From Methanobacteriota archaeon (lineage in GTDB: Archaea > Thermoplasmatota > Poseidoniia > Poseidoniales > Thalassarchaeaceae): a DNA stretch of 40,803 nt. Below are positions 11,315 to 39,835 of the stretch, piece after piece (position 1 is the stretch's first letter; every line of letters starts with the position of its first letter). The notes beneath the pieces are model-generated. The model was not told the DNA's origin and did not search any database. It worked only from the letters and a program-made list of their open reading frames with translations. Location of the stretch: assembly GCA_002719615.1 (NCBI GenBank), contig PBHZ01000019.1, positions 33,651 to 74,453 on the forward strand. Reading direction: 5' to 3'. The translations under genes and the position numbers were made by a program.

Positions 11315-12334
11315 TTATTTTATTATTTTAGGAGAAAATAGGTATACGAACCAATTCGTAATATTTTCTATAGTTTTCAATACTGGGTTAAGTATTTTTA
11401 TTACATTCTTATGTAATTCTGGTAATAAATCAAATAAAACAATGGCCATTAAAAACATTGCAAATAAACTGATAAATTTAGCAGCATAACTATGGGTAAA
11501 ATTAAACATATCAATTCCAAAAAATGACCAATTAACATACGTGTCAGTTAGCCAAACTATGCCAACATTTCTGAAAACATTTAGTATGTATATTGTAGGT
11601 ATGGAAATTATCAATGCACGCAAACGTCTTTTCCATGAAACTGAACTTAATGCTACTATTGCACCAACAAATATAATCATTGATTGTAATGCAGAACATG
11701 CTAATATGAAAATTATACTCACCGGAGTCCCATCTGCCTTTTCCATTGGTACAAAAAAACCTGCTTCTCCAAGAGGCTCGGATAATATCCACCGATTTCC
11801 TTCCCAATCAGACGCAAGTATATCTCCTCCTCCATGTAAATCAATTCTCATTGGAGCAGATTGATAACTACCTAATCCTACAAATTCTAGAATAATTTCT
11901 GTGCTAATTGCAGTTGTATATACAAATGCCATATTTAGAACCGGTACGCTGTACACCAAATAGTAAGGAACCATTGACCAAACAACACAGCCCTTTAACC
12001 ATAGTAAAGATTCTGGTATTTTTTCTTTTATATTAATTTCCCAAAACGCTAATGCTATTCCACAGGGTAGTGCAGCAGCAGTCATCAAAACTAATACTGG
12101 GTCTTCAATTTCTACATAATGCTCTGAATATAAATAGAAAAATAGTCCAACTAGAATCCACCCTATCGCAGAAAATTGTGAAATATAAGTACCATCTTTT
12201 TTATGAAAACCCATTGCTAAAAAAGCTACTCCTATTCCTCCAATTATTAATTGCATTGTGATATTTGCAATTCCAAATGTTGAGGCAATTGAGTAAACCA
12301 CTATGCCCACCGGGTCTCTCATATTCGGGCTCAA
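11315..12334 (-). CDS. artA: Archaeosortase A-like (exosortase/archaeosortase family) multi-TM transpeptidase
   Basis: About 8-9 TM segments with conserved Cys in 'ACSALQSM', Arg in 'NVFRNVGIVW' and His in 'FNFTHSYAAKF', in the order of the exosortase/archaeosortase catalytic residues. Confidence 0.85.
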   Translation of the reverse strand: MSPNMRDPVGIVVYSIASTFGIANITMQLIIGGIGVAFLAMGFHKKDGTYISQFSAIGWILVGLFFYLYSEHYVEIEDPVLVLMTAAALPCGIALAFWEINIKEKIPESLLWLKGCVVWSMVPYYLVYSVPVLNMAFVYTTAISTEIILEFVGLGSYQSAPMRIDLHGGGDILASDWEGNRWILSEPLGEAGFFVPMEKADGTPVSIIFILACSALQSMIIFVGAIVALSSVSWKRRLRALIISIPTIYILNVFRNVGIVWLTDTYVNWSFFGIDMFNFTHSYAAKFISLFAMFLMAIVLFDLLPELHKNVIKILNPVLKTIENITNWFVYLFSPKIIK

Positions 12335-12384
12335 CTCATCAATCCGTAAATAGGATGCCCTCTTCCGTTAGGTCGGAGGCGCAT

Positions 12385-12954
12385 ATGTCATTCAATTTTT
12401 CAGACTTCTCAAAGGATTATATTTCTGATCTTACTTCTAATCTTGAAAAATTATCAATCCCAACTTTAGAAGAAATTTGGAATATCATAGAAGATGCTCG
12501 CAATTCTGACAGAACTGTTCACTTAATTGGTAACGGAGGTAGTGCAGGTACACCTTCACACAGTGCTGGTGATTGGTCAAAAGAGTTGAAATTAAGGACA
12601 ATCTCTCATACTGATAATGCATCTTCTTTAACTGCTTGGGCTAATGATACGGATTATGAAAATATCTTTGTAGGTCAATTATCGACATTTATTAATCCTG
12701 GAGATGTAGTAATCGGTTACAGTGGCTCAGGAAATTCAAAAAATGTAATTAATGGAATAAAATATGCCAAAGAAAAAGAATGTCATACTATAGCTATTAC
12801 TGGCAATTATAACGGGATGGACGGTGGAAAATTAGGTAAAATAGTAGATGTAGCTTTAGTAATTCCTTCTAAATCAATGGAAAGAATCGAAGATACACAA
12901 TTAATTGTTAATCATATTATCAAAGAAGCCATTAAGTCTAATAATGGATTGTGA
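12385..12954 (+). CDS. gmhA: SIS-domain phosphoheptose isomerase-like protein (GmhA family)
   Basis: 'VHLIGNGGSAGTPSHSAGDWSKELK', 'DVVIGYSGSGNSKNVINGIKYAKEK', C-terminal 'TQLIVNHII'; start moved to ATG 12385 because the 12265 ORF start overlaps the divergent artA gene. Confidence 0.82.
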   Translation: MSFNFSDFSKDYISDLTSNLEKLSIPTLEEIWNIIEDARNSDRTVHLIGNGGSAGTPSHSAGDWSKELKLRTISHTDNASSLTAWANDTDYENIFVGQLSTFINPGDVVIGYSGSGNSKNVINGIKYAKEKECHTIAITGNYNGMDGGKLGKIVDVALVIPSKSMERIEDTQLIVNHIIKEAIKSNNGL

Positions 12955-13589
12955 TTATTTTGTTACCACCTTTTAGGGATAATGCTAATATTGATGATTA
13001 TCTTGAAATCGAAGAACTCCCGAACAAATCATGGGATGGTAAAATAGCTTATTTAGATAGAGATGGAGTGATTAATATTGGGAGTGAAAATTATATTAAT
13101 TCTCCTGATGAAGTAAAATTATTACCTAATGCGGGATTCTCTGTGGGAAAATTACGTAGACATGGTTATAGAATATGTATTGTTACAAATCAATCTCCGA
13201 TTGGACGTGGCCTATGGGATCATGAGAATCTTCATTTGATACACAATCGTATATCTGAATTATTAATCCAAGAAGATAAAGATGCCAAATTAGATTTAAT
13301 TTTGTATAGTCCTTATTCTCCATGGGATAATTCTTGGGCTAGAAAACCAAATCCAGGTATGTTAGAGGCTGGTCGACAAATTCTTAGCAATTCTTACAAA
13401 CAAGATATTGGAATTTTATATGGCGATAATTGGATTGATAGGCCTGATGAGTCAAAATCGGTGATGGTTGGAGACAGAGATGTAGATGAATTAGCGGCTA
13501 AAAAATATGGTGTTAGATTTTTTAGATGTGACCCAAATATCGGACTATATGATGTTATAGAATCAATATTAGGTGGAAAGAATGGATAA
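12951..13589 (+). CDS. gmhB: HAD-superfamily phosphatase, GmhB-like (D-glycero-D-manno-heptose bisphosphate phosphatase family)
   Basis: 'AYLDRDGVIN', 'CIVTNQSPIGRG', 'ARKPNPGMLE', 'MVGDRDVDELAAKK'; GTG start overlaps the gmhA stop (GTGA). Confidence 0.8.
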   Translation: MIILLPPFRDNANIDDYLEIEELPNKSWDGKIAYLDRDGVINIGSENYINSPDEVKLLPNAGFSVGKLRRHGYRICIVTNQSPIGRGLWDHENLHLIHNRISELLIQEDKDAKLDLILYSPYSPWDNSWARKPNPGMLEAGRQILSNSYKQDIGILYGDNWIDRPDESKSVMVGDRDVDELAAKKYGVRFFRCDPNIGLYDVIESILGGKNG

Positions 13590-27535: not shown

Positions 27536-29749
27536 ATGGGTCGTAAAGAAGATAATATTGAACGTGCAGTAGAAGTAATGCATACAAGGGAAAATATTCG
27601 AAATTTAGCAATTGCTGCCCACATAGATCATGGTAAAACCACCTTATCAGATAATCTTATTGCCGGAGCCGGAATGATGTCAGAAGATTTGGCAGGAAAA
27701 TCTAGAGTTTTGGATTTTGATGATCAAGAAAGTGCTCGTGGAATTACTATTAATGCTGCTAGTGCATCTATGGTGCACGAGGTAGATGGTTCTGATTATT
27801 TAATCAATCTAATTGATACTCCTGGCCACGTAGACTTTGGTGGAGACGTTACTCGTGCAATGAGGGCAGTAGATGGATGTATCATTTTGGCCTGTGCTGT
27901 TGAAGGTACCATGCCTCAAACAGAAACAGTCGTTAGACAAGCACTCAAGGAAAAAGTAAGGCCTGTATTATTCATAAACAAGGTGGATCGATTAATAAAC
28001 GAACTTCAAATTGATGGTGAAGAAATGATGTCTAGATTTCAGAAAATAATCATCAAAGTTAACAAATTAATCTCTACATTTGCTCCAACAGAGGAGTTAG
28101 CCAAATCCTGGCAGGTAGACGTTTCTAAGGGGACTGTTGCATTTGGCTCGGCTTACTATAATTGGGGAATGTCCATTCCTTATATGGTGAAGAGTGGGAT
28201 AAATATGACACAAGTTATGGATTATTGTAAAAATGATAAACAAAAAGAACTTGCAAAATTGGCTCCAGTACATAGGGTTCTGTTGGATATGGCAGTAGAT
28301 AAACTACCATCGCCATTAGTAGCACAGGAATATAGAATACCCAATATATGGCAGGGTGATTTAGATTCAGAGTTCGCTAAATCAATGATTAACTGCGATT
28401 CCTCAGGACCATTATCATTGATGATAGTAAAGATTTGGATGGATCCACATGCTGGAGAGGTTGCTGTAGGAAGGGTATATTCAGGATCTATTAAACATGG
28501 AGAATCCGTTTGGGCACTTGGTGCTGGTAAGGCAGAAAGAGTACAGCAAGTTAGTATGATGGTTGGAGGCGATAGGATAGCGGTTTCAGAAGTTTCTGCT
28601 GGAAATATAGCAGCATTAACTGGAATAAAAAGTGCCGCTGCAGGAGTTACTATAACACGCAATAAAGATGATACGGGTTTCGAACCAATTCGCCACTATT
28701 CAGAACCTGTCGTTACAGTTGCAGTCGAGCCTCAGTCGATGAAAGATTTACCAAAATTTATTGACGCATTAAGAAGCTTGGCCAAAGCAGATGCCTCACT
28801 ACAGGTTTCTACTAATGCAGAAACAGGGGAGGCATTATTGGCAGGTATGGGCGAACTACATTTGGAAATTACAACATACAGAATTGAAGAAGAACAAGGA
28901 ATTAAAGTGAAAGTTAGTGAACCTATTGTCGTGTACAGGGAATCAATTGAAGGAAATAATAATGGTCGTCCATTTGAAGGTAAGTCTCCAAATCGTCATA
29001 ATAGGTTTTACATTGAGGTTGAACCACTTCCTGAGAATGTTATTCAAGGTTTACGCGATGGAGATTTTGGTAAAGAAGGAGCAATTAGAACTAAAGATGC
29101 CAAAGAGGTTGGGAATAAATTTGCTGAATTTGGCATGGATAAGGATTTAATGCGTAAAATATATGCAATACATGGAACAAATGTTTTGGTGAATGATACT
29201 AAAGGAATACAAAATCTTCATGAAACTAGAGAGTTAATTATTGAAGGTTTTATTGATTGTTGTAAGAAAGGACCAGTAGCTGAAGAACCATTGATGGGAG
29301 TAATGGTAAGATTAGTTGATGCTAAACTACACGAAGATGCGATACATAGAGGCCCTGCTCAGACTATCCCGGCTGTCAGAAATTCTATGAAAGGAGCCCT
29401 AATTAGAGCTCGCTCAGTCATATTTGAGCCAATGCAAAATATCCGTATTGACGCTCCAAATGATGTTATCGGAGGAGTCACGAGTGAACTTAACAAACGT
29501 AGAGGAATAATTGAGGATATGCCGGTCGAGGGAGGAACAGCTAGTGTAATAGGCAAAATGCCAGTTGCTGAATCTTTCGGTTTTTCTAACAGTGTCAGAG
29601 CAGCAAGTCAAGGTAGGGCAGTTTGGAACACAGAAAATGCTGGCTATGTTCATTTGCCTAGGGAACTATTCAATAAAGTAGTTGTTGAAATTAGAGAGCG
29701 AAAAGGTTTGAAAACTGAGCTCCCCGGTGAAGCACAATATATGGATTAA
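27536..29749 (+). CDS. fusA: Elongation factor 2 (aEF-2)
   Basis: 'RNLAIAAHIDHGKTTLSDNLIAGAGMMSEDLAG', 'LIDTPGHVDFGGDVTRAMRAVDG', 'INKVDRLINEL', diphthamide-loop 'AIHRGPAQTIPAVR'. Confidence 0.97.
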   Translation: MGRKEDNIERAVEVMHTRENIRNLAIAAHIDHGKTTLSDNLIAGAGMMSEDLAGKSRVLDFDDQESARGITINAASASMVHEVDGSDYLINLIDTPGHVDFGGDVTRAMRAVDGCIILACAVEGTMPQTETVVRQALKEKVRPVLFINKVDRLINELQIDGEEMMSRFQKIIIKVNKLISTFAPTEELAKSWQVDVSKGTVAFGSAYYNWGMSIPYMVKSGINMTQVMDYCKNDKQKELAKLAPVHRVLLDMAVDKLPSPLVAQEYRIPNIWQGDLDSEFAKSMINCDSSGPLSLMIVKIWMDPHAGEVAVGRVYSGSIKHGESVWALGAGKAERVQQVSMMVGGDRIAVSEVSAGNIAALTGIKSAAAGVTITRNKDDTGFEPIRHYSEPVVTVAVEPQSMKDLPKFIDALRSLAKADASLQVSTNAETGEALLAGMGELHLEITTYRIEEEQGIKVKVSEPIVVYRESIEGNNNGRPFEGKSPNRHNRFYIEVEPLPENVIQGLRDGDFGKEGAIRTKDAKEVGNKFAEFGMDKDLMRKIYAIHGTNVLVNDTKGIQNLHETRELIIEGFIDCCKKGPVAEEPLMGVMVRLVDAKLHEDAIHRGPAQTIPAVRNSMKGALIRARSVIFEPMQNIRIDAPNDVIGGVTSELNKRRGIIEDMPVEGGTASVIGKMPVAESFGFSNSVRAASQGRAVWNTENAGYVHLPRELFNKVVVEIRERKGLKTELPGEAQYMD

Positions 29750-29757
29750 TATATTTT

Positions 29758-31452
29758 TTAATTAATCCTAATTAGTTGGAAATCTGTCAATTCTCTTAAA
29801 ACATCTACTTCTGGACAACTTTTTAGATTATTTAGACATTCATGAGCAATTGAATGATGATACATTGCTCTTTTCTTTGCATATTCGATAGAACCAGACC
29901 TATGAAGATCTTCTATAGCAGCATCTAATTCTTCTTCACTACATGGTCCATTCCCAAAAACTCTATTAAAATTAGATAGATTAGTATTACTATCCATTGC
30001 ATGAATCGCAATCAATGTTCTCTTACCTTGAATAATATCAGATCCTGCAGGTTTTCCTAAGGTTTTCGTGTCTCCCGTGATATCTATAAGATCATCCATT
30101 AATTGGAAACATAATCCTAGATTTAATCCCCATTTAGCCATATTCAAAACTACATCCTGAGGAGCATTAGATAATATAGCTCCAGTTCTAGCACAAGTCT
30201 CAAACATAGCACTCGTCTTACCTGCAATCATTGCGATATATTCTTCCTCTGAAACATGTTTTCTATTTTCAAACTCTATATCCTCTTGTTGCCCTTCGGC
30301 AACTCTTCTAACCATTTCACCGATTGCTCTTACTAAGTATCGGAGATTCTCTCCAGATATTTCAGATGATTCAGCAAGAATTTCGAATCCTACTGCTAGC
30401 ATAGCATCACCTGCATTAATAGCAGTGGCATCGTCATAAGCTACGTGAACGGCATCTAGACCTCTTCTAATAGGGTCTTGATCTATGATATCGTCATGAA
30501 CAAGAGTGAAGTTATGAATTATTTCAATACATGCTCCCAATGTGTAATGACCATTGTTAGCATTTCCGATTGCTTCTCCAACTAGTCTTGGTAAAATTGC
30601 CCTTAATCTTTTACCTCCACCTGAGAAAAGATGAGTCATAGCACCATGTAATCTCTTTTGTTCCATTTTACTTAAACTAAACATAATTTCTTGTTCTACC
30701 TTACTTTTGTGTTCTTTTAAGGCATCCATCAAACCGCTTCCAGGTTTTTCTTTATCTAAATACAATTGACCGCAATCTATAATTTCTTTATTTTCCATAC
30801 TAATTATACTATCGATATTGGGATAATTTTGTTTCAAAAAATGTTTCCATATCATCAAGAACCAAGGCGCAATATATTCGTTAGCCCATTCCCCTTTCCT
30901 TTGCATCATACTCAAAAGTTGATTTTCATCTAACCACTTGACAGTTTCAATTTCATTTTCATTAATGTTTAAACTGACATCATATTGAACTAGTAGAACA
31001 TGATCTATTTCTTTTTCAATCCAATCATTATCCCATCTGCATTGATATTCAAATCGTCCTAATAAATTAAAATCCCAATTTTCCGTTATAGACATGGAAA
31101 TTCCTAATTCATGTTCTAATTTCCTTCTAGCTGCATTAATTACTCCACTGTCGTTCTCAATATTTTCATTATCTAAATCCAAAGGATGACTGCAACATGC
31201 GTTTGCCCAAACTCCTGGAAAAGTTATTTTTTCATTTGAACGCTGTTGAACCAGCATTTCTCCCTTATTATTGACGATTACAACACTAAATGCCCGATGT
31301 CTGTGTCCTTCTCCAAAATGACAATCAAGTTTGCTCATGGTGCCAATCACATTATCTTCTTTATCAACTAATAAGCACATTTCTTCCATCATTTCTGATT
31401 GTTCGGGGTCATGTTTTTCCAAATGCTTAATAGCGTCCGACATATATTTCAA
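29758..31452 (-). CDS. Fused type I isopentenyl-diphosphate isomerase (N-terminal) and GGPP/polyprenyl synthase (C-terminal)
   Basis: N-terminal 'GHRHRAFSVVIVNNKGEMLVQQRS', 'VWANACCSHPLDL', 'ARRKLEHELG', 'IEKEIDHVLLV' (IDI-1); C-terminal 'GGGKRLRAILPRL', 'LVHDDIIDQDPIRRG' and 'LMDDLIDITGDTKTLGKPAGSDI' (trans-prenyl synthase). Confidence 0.93.
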   Translation of the reverse strand: MKYMSDAIKHLEKHDPEQSEMMEEMCLLVDKEDNVIGTMSKLDCHFGEGHRHRAFSVVIVNNKGEMLVQQRSNEKITFPGVWANACCSHPLDLDNENIENDSGVINAARRKLEHELGISMSITENWDFNLLGRFEYQCRWDNDWIEKEIDHVLLVQYDVSLNINENEIETVKWLDENQLLSMMQRKGEWANEYIAPWFLMIWKHFLKQNYPNIDSIISMENKEIIDCGQLYLDKEKPGSGLMDALKEHKSKVEQEIMFSLSKMEQKRLHGAMTHLFSGGGKRLRAILPRLVGEAIGNANNGHYTLGACIEIIHNFTLVHDDIIDQDPIRRGLDAVHVAYDDATAINAGDAMLAVGFEILAESSEISGENLRYLVRAIGEMVRRVAEGQQEDIEFENRKHVSEEEYIAMIAGKTSAMFETCARTGAILSNAPQDVVLNMAKWGLNLGLCFQLMDDLIDITGDTKTLGKPAGSDIIQGKRTLIAIHAMDSNTNLSNFNRVFGNGPCSEEELDAAIEDLHRSGSIEYAKKRAMYHHSIAHECLNNLKSCPEVDVLRELTDFQLIRIN

Positions 31453-31485: not shown

Positions 31486-32289
31486 TTATTGTGGTTTAAT
31501 CTTAGTCCCTATTGTAGAACCTGTCCTAACAAGTTGTAAGATTCTTTCTGGTCTATCGCCATTAAGAAACCAGACATTGTCAATTTTTTTCGCTATTTCT
31601 GATGCTCTCATCAATTTCAAATCCATCCCTCCTGTAACATCAACTTCTGAATTATGTGAAGTTCTAATAGAATCATTACTATTCCAAATAGGAACTAATT
31701 CGGCATCAGAATTATCTGGTGGTTTGTCCATTACACCATCAACATCCCCTAAGAGAAAAATTGTAAAATTTACATCTGGTATTTCTATAGAAAGTCTATA
31801 CATTAAATCATCCCCAGATAATATGCCAAATTCTTTTTCATCATCTCTCTCCACTACGTCTCCAAAACAGATTGGAATTATTTCGCCCAATTTTTTTTCA
31901 AATATACTTATATCTCCGATAAATTCTTTCCCGATATTCTTAGCCCAAATAGAAGGTGGAAATCCCGTTGAATTTAAATTAACTCTTTTCAATGAATCTA
32001 TAACTTCATTATTCAATTCTCTCATATCTTCTCTTATTTGTTTAACAGCTTTAATCTGTTTATCATTGATATCGTGATTAATTCCTTCCGAAATTTTCAT
32101 TTCTTTTGATAATATGTGGCCATAAGAACCTGCACCATGTACAATAATAATATTATATTTTTCTTCAATTAAAATTTTTATTACTTTACATACTTTATTG
32201 ATCGCATCTTTATCCAAGGTTTTTACTTTATTTTTATTTGTTATTAAACCCCCTCCAAGTTTAATTACTATTCTACCTTTGGTACTCAC
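31486..32289 (-). CDS. ipk: Isopentenyl phosphate kinase (probable GTG start 32289)
   Basis: 'GRIVIKLGGGLITNK', 'IIIVHGAGSYGHILSKEMKISEGI', 'GILSGDDLMYRLS', 'DVTGGMDLKLMRASEIAKK'; directly upstream of the IDI-GGPPS gene. Confidence 0.9.
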   Translation of the reverse strand: MSTKGRIVIKLGGGLITNKNKVKTLDKDAINKVCKVIKILIEEKYNIIIVHGAGSYGHILSKEMKISEGINHDINDKQIKAVKQIREDMRELNNEVIDSLKRVNLNSTGFPPSIWAKNIGKEFIGDISIFEKKLGEIIPICFGDVVERDDEKEFGILSGDDLMYRLSIEIPDVNFTIFLLGDVDGVMDKPPDNSDAELVPIWNSNDSIRTSHNSEVDVTGGMDLKLMRASEIAKKIDNVWFLNGDRPERILQLVRTGSTIGTKIKPQ

Positions 32290-32377
32290 AAATTGGTGGA
32301 AGAGGTGAGAGTATTCAATACTTACATTGAATGCTGTTATTGGACAACTTAATGTTACATGATTGCTTGGGAGTATT

Positions 32378-32701
32378 ATGAGTGAATCTGGTGACATTGT
32401 AAAATTTCAAAGATGGTTACAATCTCAACTATCAGAAGCAGAGAGTATTGAAGATCCACAAGAGAAAAAAAGAAGAATTTTAAGAATAGATGCCGCACTA
32501 TCAGAAACAATTTTCTTTAGAGAATTATTAGAAACAATTGATGATGTAATTGAGTCACCTTTTGTTCAAAGAGAAACGCCTGTTCGCAATAATGAAAGAC
32601 AGGAATTAACTCCAAAACAAAATAATTCTTTAACCTGCTCTAAGTGCAATGGCGAAATAGATTCAGAGTTAAAATTCTGTCTTCTTTGTGGAGAATACTA
32701 A
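32378..32701 (+). CDS. Small protein with C-terminal zinc ribbon, unknown function
   Basis: 'CSKCNGEIDSELKFCLLCGEY' CxxC...CxxC; start ATG 32378 preferred over 32363. Confidence 0.65.
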   Translation: MSESGDIVKFQRWLQSQLSEAESIEDPQEKKRRILRIDAALSETIFFRELLETIDDVIESPFVQRETPVRNNERQELTPKQNNSLTCSKCNGEIDSELKFCLLCGEY

Positions 32702-33424
32702 TTATTCTTCTTCATCTTCCCATTTTGCTCTGGCTAGAACATACTGTGGATGATTATTTTCTATTACTGATAAGTATTCACCTTCGACTTTTTCAGTTAG
32801 ATAAACTGTAACTCCTGCATGCCATATCATTTCCCCGGAAGCCACCATACGGGCAGTATCAACTTCAAGAATTGTGGGTAGCGAAAAATGCACCTTTCCA
32901 GCTTCAGCTGCTGATCTAATTGATGCAGATAGATGAACATGTGCTCTATTACCTGGCGTCAGTCCAACTTCTAACAGATTATCAGTATGTTCTGGATCGC
33001 AAGGAAAGTATAATGCATCTGGTATATTATCTGTAGGTAAATCTAGTTCAATTTCTAAAGTATGTCCATAAGTAGCCCTTATCATTATCCCCCTTACTTC
33101 ATACCTTCCTTTTGGATCAGTTTCTGCAATCGCATTGAAATGATGAGGTCTTAACCAATGATACCTCTTTTCATCCCGTTTTTTGAATTGTCTGATTATG
33201 TCTTTTATATCTACCCACCCATTTATATCCATTTCTAGATCAAATTTTTCGGGTGCGTGTCTCAGTATCAGAGCTAATCTTCTCGCCATACTGTTTCGTT
33301 CACCAGTCCTCATGATAAATTTCCCTTCTGCATTACATGCTGGGCACAAATGATCATCTGCATAATATCCGTGATTTTGACATTCTCTAATCATATCATA
33401 CATGCCCAGTTGCATTTCTTTCAT
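32702..33424 (-). CDS. kptA: RNA 2'-phosphotransferase (Tpt1/KptA family)
   Basis: 'ARRLALILRHAPEKFDLEMDINGWVDIKDII', 'GRYEVRGIMIRATYGHT', 'HVHLSASIRSAAEAGK'; N-terminal 'CQNHGYYADDHLCPAC'. Confidence 0.9.
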   Translation of the reverse strand: MKEMQLGMYDMIRECQNHGYYADDHLCPACNAEGKFIMRTGERNSMARRLALILRHAPEKFDLEMDINGWVDIKDIIRQFKKRDEKRYHWLRPHHFNAIAETDPKGRYEVRGIMIRATYGHTLEIELDLPTDNIPDALYFPCDPEHTDNLLEVGLTPGNRAHVHLSASIRSAAEAGKVHFSLPTILEVDTARMVASGEMIWHAGVTVYLTEKVEGEYLSVIENNHPQYVLARAKWEDEEE

Positions 33425-38069: not shown

Positions 38070-39017
38070 TCATTTACGGCTTACACTCTTCTTAGCCGCT
38101 TTGACTATATCTAATGTACTCATTGACATTTTTTCTAATAATTCTTCCGAATCTCCACTTTCACCAAATATGTCCTTTACTCCGACCATTTCTACAGGAA
38201 CTAGGTTATTTCGCGAATTATGTTCTGCTACAGCACTACCTAATCCCCCTATAATGGAATGATCTTCTGCAGTAACTATGCATCCACATCTTTTACTCCA
38301 TACATCTATTAATACTTCATCTAATGGTTTTATAGTATGCATATCTATTACTGCTGCATTAATTCCTTCCTTTTTCAAAATATTACTGGCTTCAATTGAT
38401 TTTGAAACCATTACTCCACAACTAATTATTACGACATCATCCCCTTCTTTGAGTAAATTTCCTTTACCAATCTTCAAATTATTTTTCGTTTCATTTGTAT
38501 AAGATCGTGAAACCTTGTTTCTGATAGTTCTCATATAGGAAGGACCTTCCAATTGTACTACTTGCATGGTTAGCTCTTCTGCAGAGATATCATCTGCAGG
38601 ATGAATAATTGTCATATTCGGTAAAGTTCGATATATCGCTAAATCTTCTATTGATTGTGCACTACTTCCATCACTTCCAGTGTGTATTCCACCATGGCTT
38701 CCACAAATATGAACCTTTAAGCATGGCCTGGCAATACCATTTCTGACTTGCTCGAATCCTCTTTCAGTGAAAATAGCAAAGGTACTGGCCATAGGAATTT
38801 TGCCCGATGAAGCCAGTCCAGCTGCTACCAACATCATATTTTGTTCAGCAATTCCCAATGAAAATGTCCTATCGGGATATTCAGATCTAAAATGACAAGA
38901 TTTAGTCGATTTACCTAAATCTGCTTCTAAAACTACTATATTGGGATTACTGGCTAACTTCAACAACGCACTACCATAACCATCTCTTGAGGCCCCTCCT
39001 CCAGATGGTGCACTCAC
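38070..39017 (-). CDS. Transketolase, C-terminal subunit (split form)
   Basis: 'RTFSLGIAEQNMMLVAAGLASSGKIPMASTFAIF', 'GGIHTGSDGSSAQSIEDLAIYRTLPNMTIIHPAD'. Confidence 0.94.
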   Translation of the reverse strand: MSAPSGGGASRDGYGSALLKLASNPNIVVLEADLGKSTKSCHFRSEYPDRTFSLGIAEQNMMLVAAGLASSGKIPMASTFAIFTERGFEQVRNGIARPCLKVHICGSHGGIHTGSDGSSAQSIEDLAIYRTLPNMTIIHPADDISAEELTMQVVQLEGPSYMRTIRNKVSRSYTNETKNNLKIGKGNLLKEGDDVVIISCGVMVSKSIEASNILKKEGINAAVIDMHTIKPLDEVLIDVWSKRCGCIVTAEDHSIIGGLGSAVAEHNSRNNLVPVEMVGVKDIFGESGDSEELLEKMSMSTLDIVKAAKKSVSRK

Positions 39018-39835
39018 GACAATTCCTCCATAGCAATCTGAAACTCTTCGTCATTTGGGGCTTTTCCATGGAATGATGGATTATTTTCCATATATGATAC
39101 TCCTTTTCCTTTTATTGTATTGGCAATTATTGCCATTGGTCCTTCACTGCCATTATTAGCCCAATTAATTGCATCACAGATTTCATTCATATTATGCCCA
39201 TCTATCTCTCTAACATCCCATCCGAATGATTCAATTTTACTACTTAGATTACCTACTTCCATTTGTTTAGACACAAAATCGTCATTTTGTATTTGATTTC
39301 TATCGATTATTAACTTTAAATTATTACTTGAGTGAAAATTTGCTGCCATTATTGCTTCCCATAATTGCCCTTCTTGAGTTTCCCCATCACCTATCATCAC
39401 CCAAATTCTCCTGTTACTATTATCTAATTTAGCAGCTAATGAGCACCCTAGCCCAAACGATAGTCCCATACCCAAACTTCCCGCAGAGAAATCAACTCCA
39501 TCTGTCCATTTCATATCAACATGGCCTTGGCATACAGAACCTAATTTTCTGAAGGACATGAAATCTTGTTCATTGATAATATCAAACTCATATAAAATAG
39601 AATAAACTGCAGGACTGGCATGCCCTTTACTCATTATAAATCGATCTCTATCTTCCCAATTTGTATCTGAAGGATTTATATTCAAAACAGTACCATATAA
39701 TCCTACAATCATATCAATAGCCGACAAAGATCCTCCCGGATGTCCTGATTGAGCTTCATGTATCATTCTAATTATATTGATTCTACATCTCAATGCCATT
39801 TCTTCTAATTCAGTTATATCCATATTAAACGGCAT
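39014..39835 (-). CDS. Transketolase, N-terminal subunit (split form)
   Basis: 'EAQSGHPGGSLSAIDMIVGLYG', 'DRFIMSKGHASPAVYSIL', 'MIGDGETQEGQLWEAIMAANFH'; overlaps the downstream subunit by 4 nt. Confidence 0.94.
   Translation of the reverse strand: MPFNMDITELEEMALRCRINIIRMIHEAQSGHPGGSLSAIDMIVGLYGTVLNINPSDTNWEDRDRFIMSKGHASPAVYSILYEFDIINEQDFMSFRKLGSVCQGHVDMKWTDGVDFSAGSLGMGLSFGLGCSLAAKLDNSNRRIWVMIGDGETQEGQLWEAIMAANFHSSNNLKLIIDRNQIQNDDFVSKQMEVGNLSSKIESFGWDVREIDGHNMNEICDAINWANNGSEGPMAIIANTIKGKGVSYMENNPSFHGKAPNDEEFQIAMEELS

Follow-up and report, generated by a model that had tools for sequence, protein, structure and literature searches.

The window, the whole 40,803-nucleotide stretch of DNA analysed here, comes from an uncultured ocean archaeon of Marine Group II (MGII) and carries on its minus strand a gene that joins an intact type I isopentenyl diphosphate (IPP) isomerase and an intact short-chain trans-prenyltransferase in one reading frame (Table 1). 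The frame is open from 31452 to 29758, with 564 codons when counted from TTG 31452, and the remaining frames over the same interval contain 25-71 stops each. Both TTG 31452 and ATG 31443 are possible start codons, of which ATG 31443 is the likelier. An initial annotation had described this uninterrupted frame, leaving out its strand, as a single-ORF fusion of IDI-1 and GGPP synthase (GGPPS). The frame is real and all the motifs quoted for it are present in the translation; domain profiles, invariant active sites and a confident model with two domains all support the fusion, which recurs in many independent genomes. The AlphaFold model (pLDDT 89.7) showed two confident domains and a flexible linker, in which confidence was lowest at residues 231-234 (pLDDT <50); the mutual orientation of the two domains is left undefined (pTM 0.60).

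Table 1. Features of the fusion locus in the window.
Feature	Position	Strand	Remarks
idi1-ggpps fusion gene	29758..31443	minus	561 aa from ATG 31443
Type I (Nudix) IPP:DMAPP isomerase domain	30807..31386	minus	about aa 23-215; C87, H45, E146/E148, W197
IDI C-terminal tail (IIDCGQL) and linker	30730..30807	minus	from alignment of fused and split genes
Trans-prenyltransferase (GGPPS-like) domain	29761..30729	minus	HDDIIDQD, FQLMDDLID, F at -5 of first DDxxD
Isopentenyl phosphate kinase (IPK)	31486..32397	minus	NF040647, 192 bits (cut-off 120); directly upstream of fusion
RNA 2'-phosphotransferase (KptA)	32702..33424	minus	next gene upstream after IPK; conserved neighbour
Elongation factor 2 (EF2)	27536..29749	plus	convergent, just 3' of fusion; conserved neighbour

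The gene order KptA, IPK, IDI-GGPPS with convergent EF2 was largely kept in the loci that we read, some MGIIa loci being rearranged, and the IPK adjoined the fusion in nearly all MGII loci examined. Isopentenyl phosphate kinase makes IPP, the substrate of IPP isomerase. Elsewhere, the window encodes an archaeosortase A-like protein (11315-12334, minus strand; TIGR04125, 97.6 bits, over the cut-off) and, at 12265-13589 on the plus strand, a GmhA-like isomerase followed by a GmhB/histidinol-phosphatase-like HAD phosphatase, both below equivalog cut-offs. This pair suggests heptose synthesis in the source archaeon. At 38070-39835 (minus strand), transketolase appears by eye to be two adjacent genes for its N- and C-terminal parts.

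The isomerase half matched the NCBIfam model IPP_isom_1 (TIGR02150) over residues 26-201 with 148.4 bits, above the family cut-off of 105.8, and the Pfam NUDIX domain over residues 51-198 of the fusion protein; TIGR02150 was matched by all 40 aligned members. The catalytic positions C87, H45, E146 and E148 were invariant across 45 Poseidoniia sequences, so that the loss of catalytic residues against which the initial annotation had cautioned did not appear on alignment. Likewise, the HRAF, CSHP and APWF motifs were invariant across 40 sequences; the catalytic Cys, the metal-binding His/Glu set and the C-terminal Trp are all present. A structure search with the model matched this half to human IDI1 structures. 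Isomerisation of IPP to DMAPP is the predicted activity of the N-terminal half. None of 60 genomes held a type II isomerase over the cut-off, short and weak matches being all that was seen, and 7 of 14 control genomes exceeded it; within this sample, we reject the idea that a type II IDI serves as back-up. The genome also encodes a stand-alone Nudix protein (L003:1480-2004, minus strand) with 26% identity to the isomerase half, for which Pfam gives a generic NUDIX match only.

The C-terminal half matched polyprenyl_synt (PF00348) over residues 266-515 with 223 bits. Both aspartate-rich motifs are present, and the active-site positions checked in this half were invariant across 45 Poseidoniia sequences except for one D-to-E change ending the second DDxxD. 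Its closest solved relatives include the archaeal GGPP synthases 5jfq and 1wy0, and Foldseek aligned it with 5jfq at a TMt of 0.94. In trans-prenyltransferases, the residue at position -5 of the first DDxxD governs chain length, and an aromatic residue there is a mark of archaeal GGPPS. All 45 sequences showed Phe at this position (NFTLVHDD), in a motif without insertion. At the same time, this half missed the NCBIfam equivalog cut-offs (GGPP_syn 243 of 500 bits; IdsA 257 of 468 bits), and therefore the C20 product is a prediction drawn from the -5 residue and from homology. The fused prenyltransferase might instead make FPP, a C25 product or a mixture, in which case GGPP would come from a different enzyme, for example the genome's second prenyltransferase (L002:1429-2418). 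The missed cut-offs, and a best score with the short-chain IdsA model, speak for such a product, but the invariant Phe, as in 5jfq, speaks against it, and the paralogue has Ala at -5 (HTATLIHDD), which by chain-length rules suggests a longer product. We consider this alternative unlikely, and a C20 product remains our preferred reading. The L002 prenyltransferase adjoins a putative FAD-dependent reductase that is geranylgeranyl-reductase-like by eye.

Separate, adjacent IDI and GGPPS genes on the same strand were found in the 7 Marine Group III genomes that we read and in 5 of 5 genomes of the Poseidoniaceae genus g12. At 9 of these 12 split loci, the two genes share 4 nt where IDI stops and GGPPS starts (ATGA or TTGA); the overlap is longer at two, and at the remaining locus GGPPS begins on the final base of the IDI stop codon. 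The GGPPS frame always differs from the IDI frame. IDI has a conserved G-E/D-V/L tail, with codons similar to a Shine-Dalgarno sequence (L111-L115, L119-L125), and GGPPS usually starts 11 nt past the Gly codon of that tail. Fused genes often have a Met 12 nt (MGIIb) or 15 nt (MGIIa) past the same Gly codon, and therefore a net gain of 1 or 4 nt would merge the two frames. The register suggests that a net change of +1 or +4 nt, at the place where the genes once overlapped, may have fused them. In the two-domain tree, the split g12 genes fell, weakly supported (81/59), outside all fused MGII genes, and a test of this tree did not reject a group of g12 and MGIIa (p-AU 0.31); in the EF2 tree, built for comparison, g12 lay inside MGIIa (99/94). 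These trees are compatible with a single fusion followed by fission in g12 and also with separate fusions with different spacers. Since living relatives include the fused gene as well as the overlapping pair, their sequences allow the stages of a gene fusion to be followed.

The full-length protein could be accompanied by a stand-alone GGPPS translated from an internal start, left over from the start codon of the formerly coupled gene. The initial annotation had taken 30798 to be the sole internal ATG near the junction, which is wrong, since further ATGs lie at 30729 and 30684; its remark that ATG 30798 has no clear Shine-Dalgarno sequence holds, and the match is 3 nt at most at each of the three. 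Several genes of the window (EF2, S7, Rrp41, Rrp42 and one transketolase subunit) have Shine-Dalgarno sequences of 5-7 nt. In relatives with separate genes, IDI stops and GGPPS starts within the aligned tail and linker region, and ATG 30729 aligns near the start of stand-alone GGPPS genes. On the one hand, 28 of 56 distinct fused genes retain an ATG at the junction whose Shine-Dalgarno match is at least 4 nt long, the relic Met described above is found in many MGIIb and MGIIa genes, and matches of at least 5 nt precede 25% of junction ATGs vs 4.8% of other in-frame ATGs, which would fit internal initiation in some lineages; the sequences are related and not independent, and the P value of this comparison is therefore indicative at most. 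On the other hand, in the lineage of the window the old start Met has been replaced by Leu (CGQLYL), the remaining ATGs have the short matches given above, and fused genes as a whole do not conserve the relic ATG or ATG 30729. Accordingly, we regard a second product as improbable for the window gene and favour a single polypeptide.

In a scan of public genomes, all 34 full-length copies of the fusion belonged to Marine Group II (Poseidoniales), with 62-95% identity, and one additional copy was broken off by a contig end. A class-wide search gave a match in 337 of 340 genomes, and the strongest matches listed, which number more than 150 and represent both families of Marine Group II, cross the junction in one stop-free frame. 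A match stronger than 1e-140 occurs, by our own reading of the match table, in about 250 of the 319 Marine Group II genomes; most of the remaining ones are incomplete, with only the paralogue or a fragment matched. No viral copies were found in IMG/VR. The fusion extends across the Marine Group II clade, being common to nearly the whole order, and is not a local oddity. Separate adjacent genes do occur in Marine Group III and g12, but contigs of many studies carry the fusion at 47-95% identity and in frame every time, so that an assembly or frameshift artefact joining two genes, which the initial annotation had considered near 30790-30800, is refuted and deserves practically no credence.

The isomerase half resembles the human enzyme. 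The domain from the window scored 150 bits against human IDI1 and 60 bits against E. coli Idi. Human IDI1 matched the Poseidoniia domains with 38-49% identity and 142-194 bits, and thaumarchaeal, haloarchaeal and bacterial IDI-1 with at most 108 bits. In a tree of 60 sequences, in which eukaryotes were represented by human IDI1 and IDI2 only, Asgard sequences were absent and bacterial sampling was narrow, the human and Poseidoniia sequences formed one group (100/100) apart from the haloarchaeal, thaumarchaeal and sampled bacterial IDI-1. Outside Poseidoniia, samples of Thermoproteota, Halobacteriota and other Thermoplasmatota were searched, and none gave a match of similar strength. Within this sampling, similarity and tree rule out a bacterial-type IDI-1 as the source, and the isomerase half is closer in sequence to the human enzyme than to any sampled bacterial or other archaeal version. 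In a 2012 review, archaeal IDI1 genes, of apparent bacterial origin, were known only in Haloarchaea and Thaumarchaeota (PMC3533463). A eukaryote-type isomerase in archaea is relevant to the exchange of genes between archaea and eukaryotes.

Considering the open frame in very many genomes, the intact active sites, the lack of a type II IDI over the cut-off, the adjacency of the IPK and the split relatives, we hold it highly probable that the gene encodes one bifunctional polypeptide that carries out isomerisation and then GGPP synthesis for archaeal ether lipids. The N-terminal type I isomerase would turn part of the IPP from the neighbouring IPK into DMAPP, and the tethered C-terminal prenyltransferase would condense DMAPP with three IPP to GGPP for these lipids. 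Both activities, the C20 product and an uncut protein are predicted, and the tether would hold the two activities close together and in a fixed ratio. More tentatively, we propose a wider scenario, which taken as a whole is plausible but falls somewhat short of even odds. The ancestor of Poseidoniia (MGII and MGIII) may have exchanged the isomerase gene with a eukaryotic lineage, lost the type II IDI and coupled the gene translationally to GGPPS; a change of one or four bases may then have created, in Marine Group II, an obligate bifunctional enzyme controlling the GGPP supply for the membranes of these widespread ocean archaea.

Both chemistries are known, as are fusions of IDI to other isoprenoid enzymes, and a natural IDI-GGPPS fusion seems undescribed within the literature searched, in which we found only an engineered one and outside which most subscription journals lay. 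In uncultured ocean archaea, the predicted bifunctional enzyme would occur order-wide at the point where the pathway branches towards archaeal membrane lipids. Human IDI1 (PDB 2dho, 2i6k) shares fold and active-site residues with the isomerase half and is about 42% identical to the domain in the window and 43-49% to those of MGIII; it is a stand-alone enzyme, whereas the window isomerase is archaeal and fused to a prenyltransferase. Similarly, the GGPP synthases of Geoglobus acetivorans (5jfq) and Pyrococcus horikoshii (1wy0) share the fold, both DDxxD motifs and the aromatic residue at -5 with the other half, but they are separate proteins and the window GGPPS is the C-terminal half of a fusion. 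One Moraniibacteriota genome has a single ORF with IDI-1 and a prenyltransferase-like domain in the same order (L160:1296-2663; L222), and this type was not found in 16 family members or elsewhere among 116 sampled genomes of the phylum. In contrast to the Marine Group II fusion, its prenyltransferase is poorly conserved and its isomerase lies elsewhere in the tree, consistent with a separate origin. The IspH-UbiA Rosetta-stone fusion also combines a precursor-forming enzyme with a prenyltransferase-family protein, but with other enzymes and in another pathway (MEP, UbiA family) (PMC4746011). In the diatom fusion PtIDISQS, an IPP isomerase is likewise fused to a downstream isoprenoid enzyme; the partner is squalene synthase, not GGPPS, and the fusion is eukaryotic (cited in PMC12168105). 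The engineered fusion PpIDI-(GGGGS)2-SaGGPPS, which raised the GGPP supply in Pichia yeast, is artificial, but it has the same two enzymes in the same order with a flexible linker, as in the window gene (PMC6786277).
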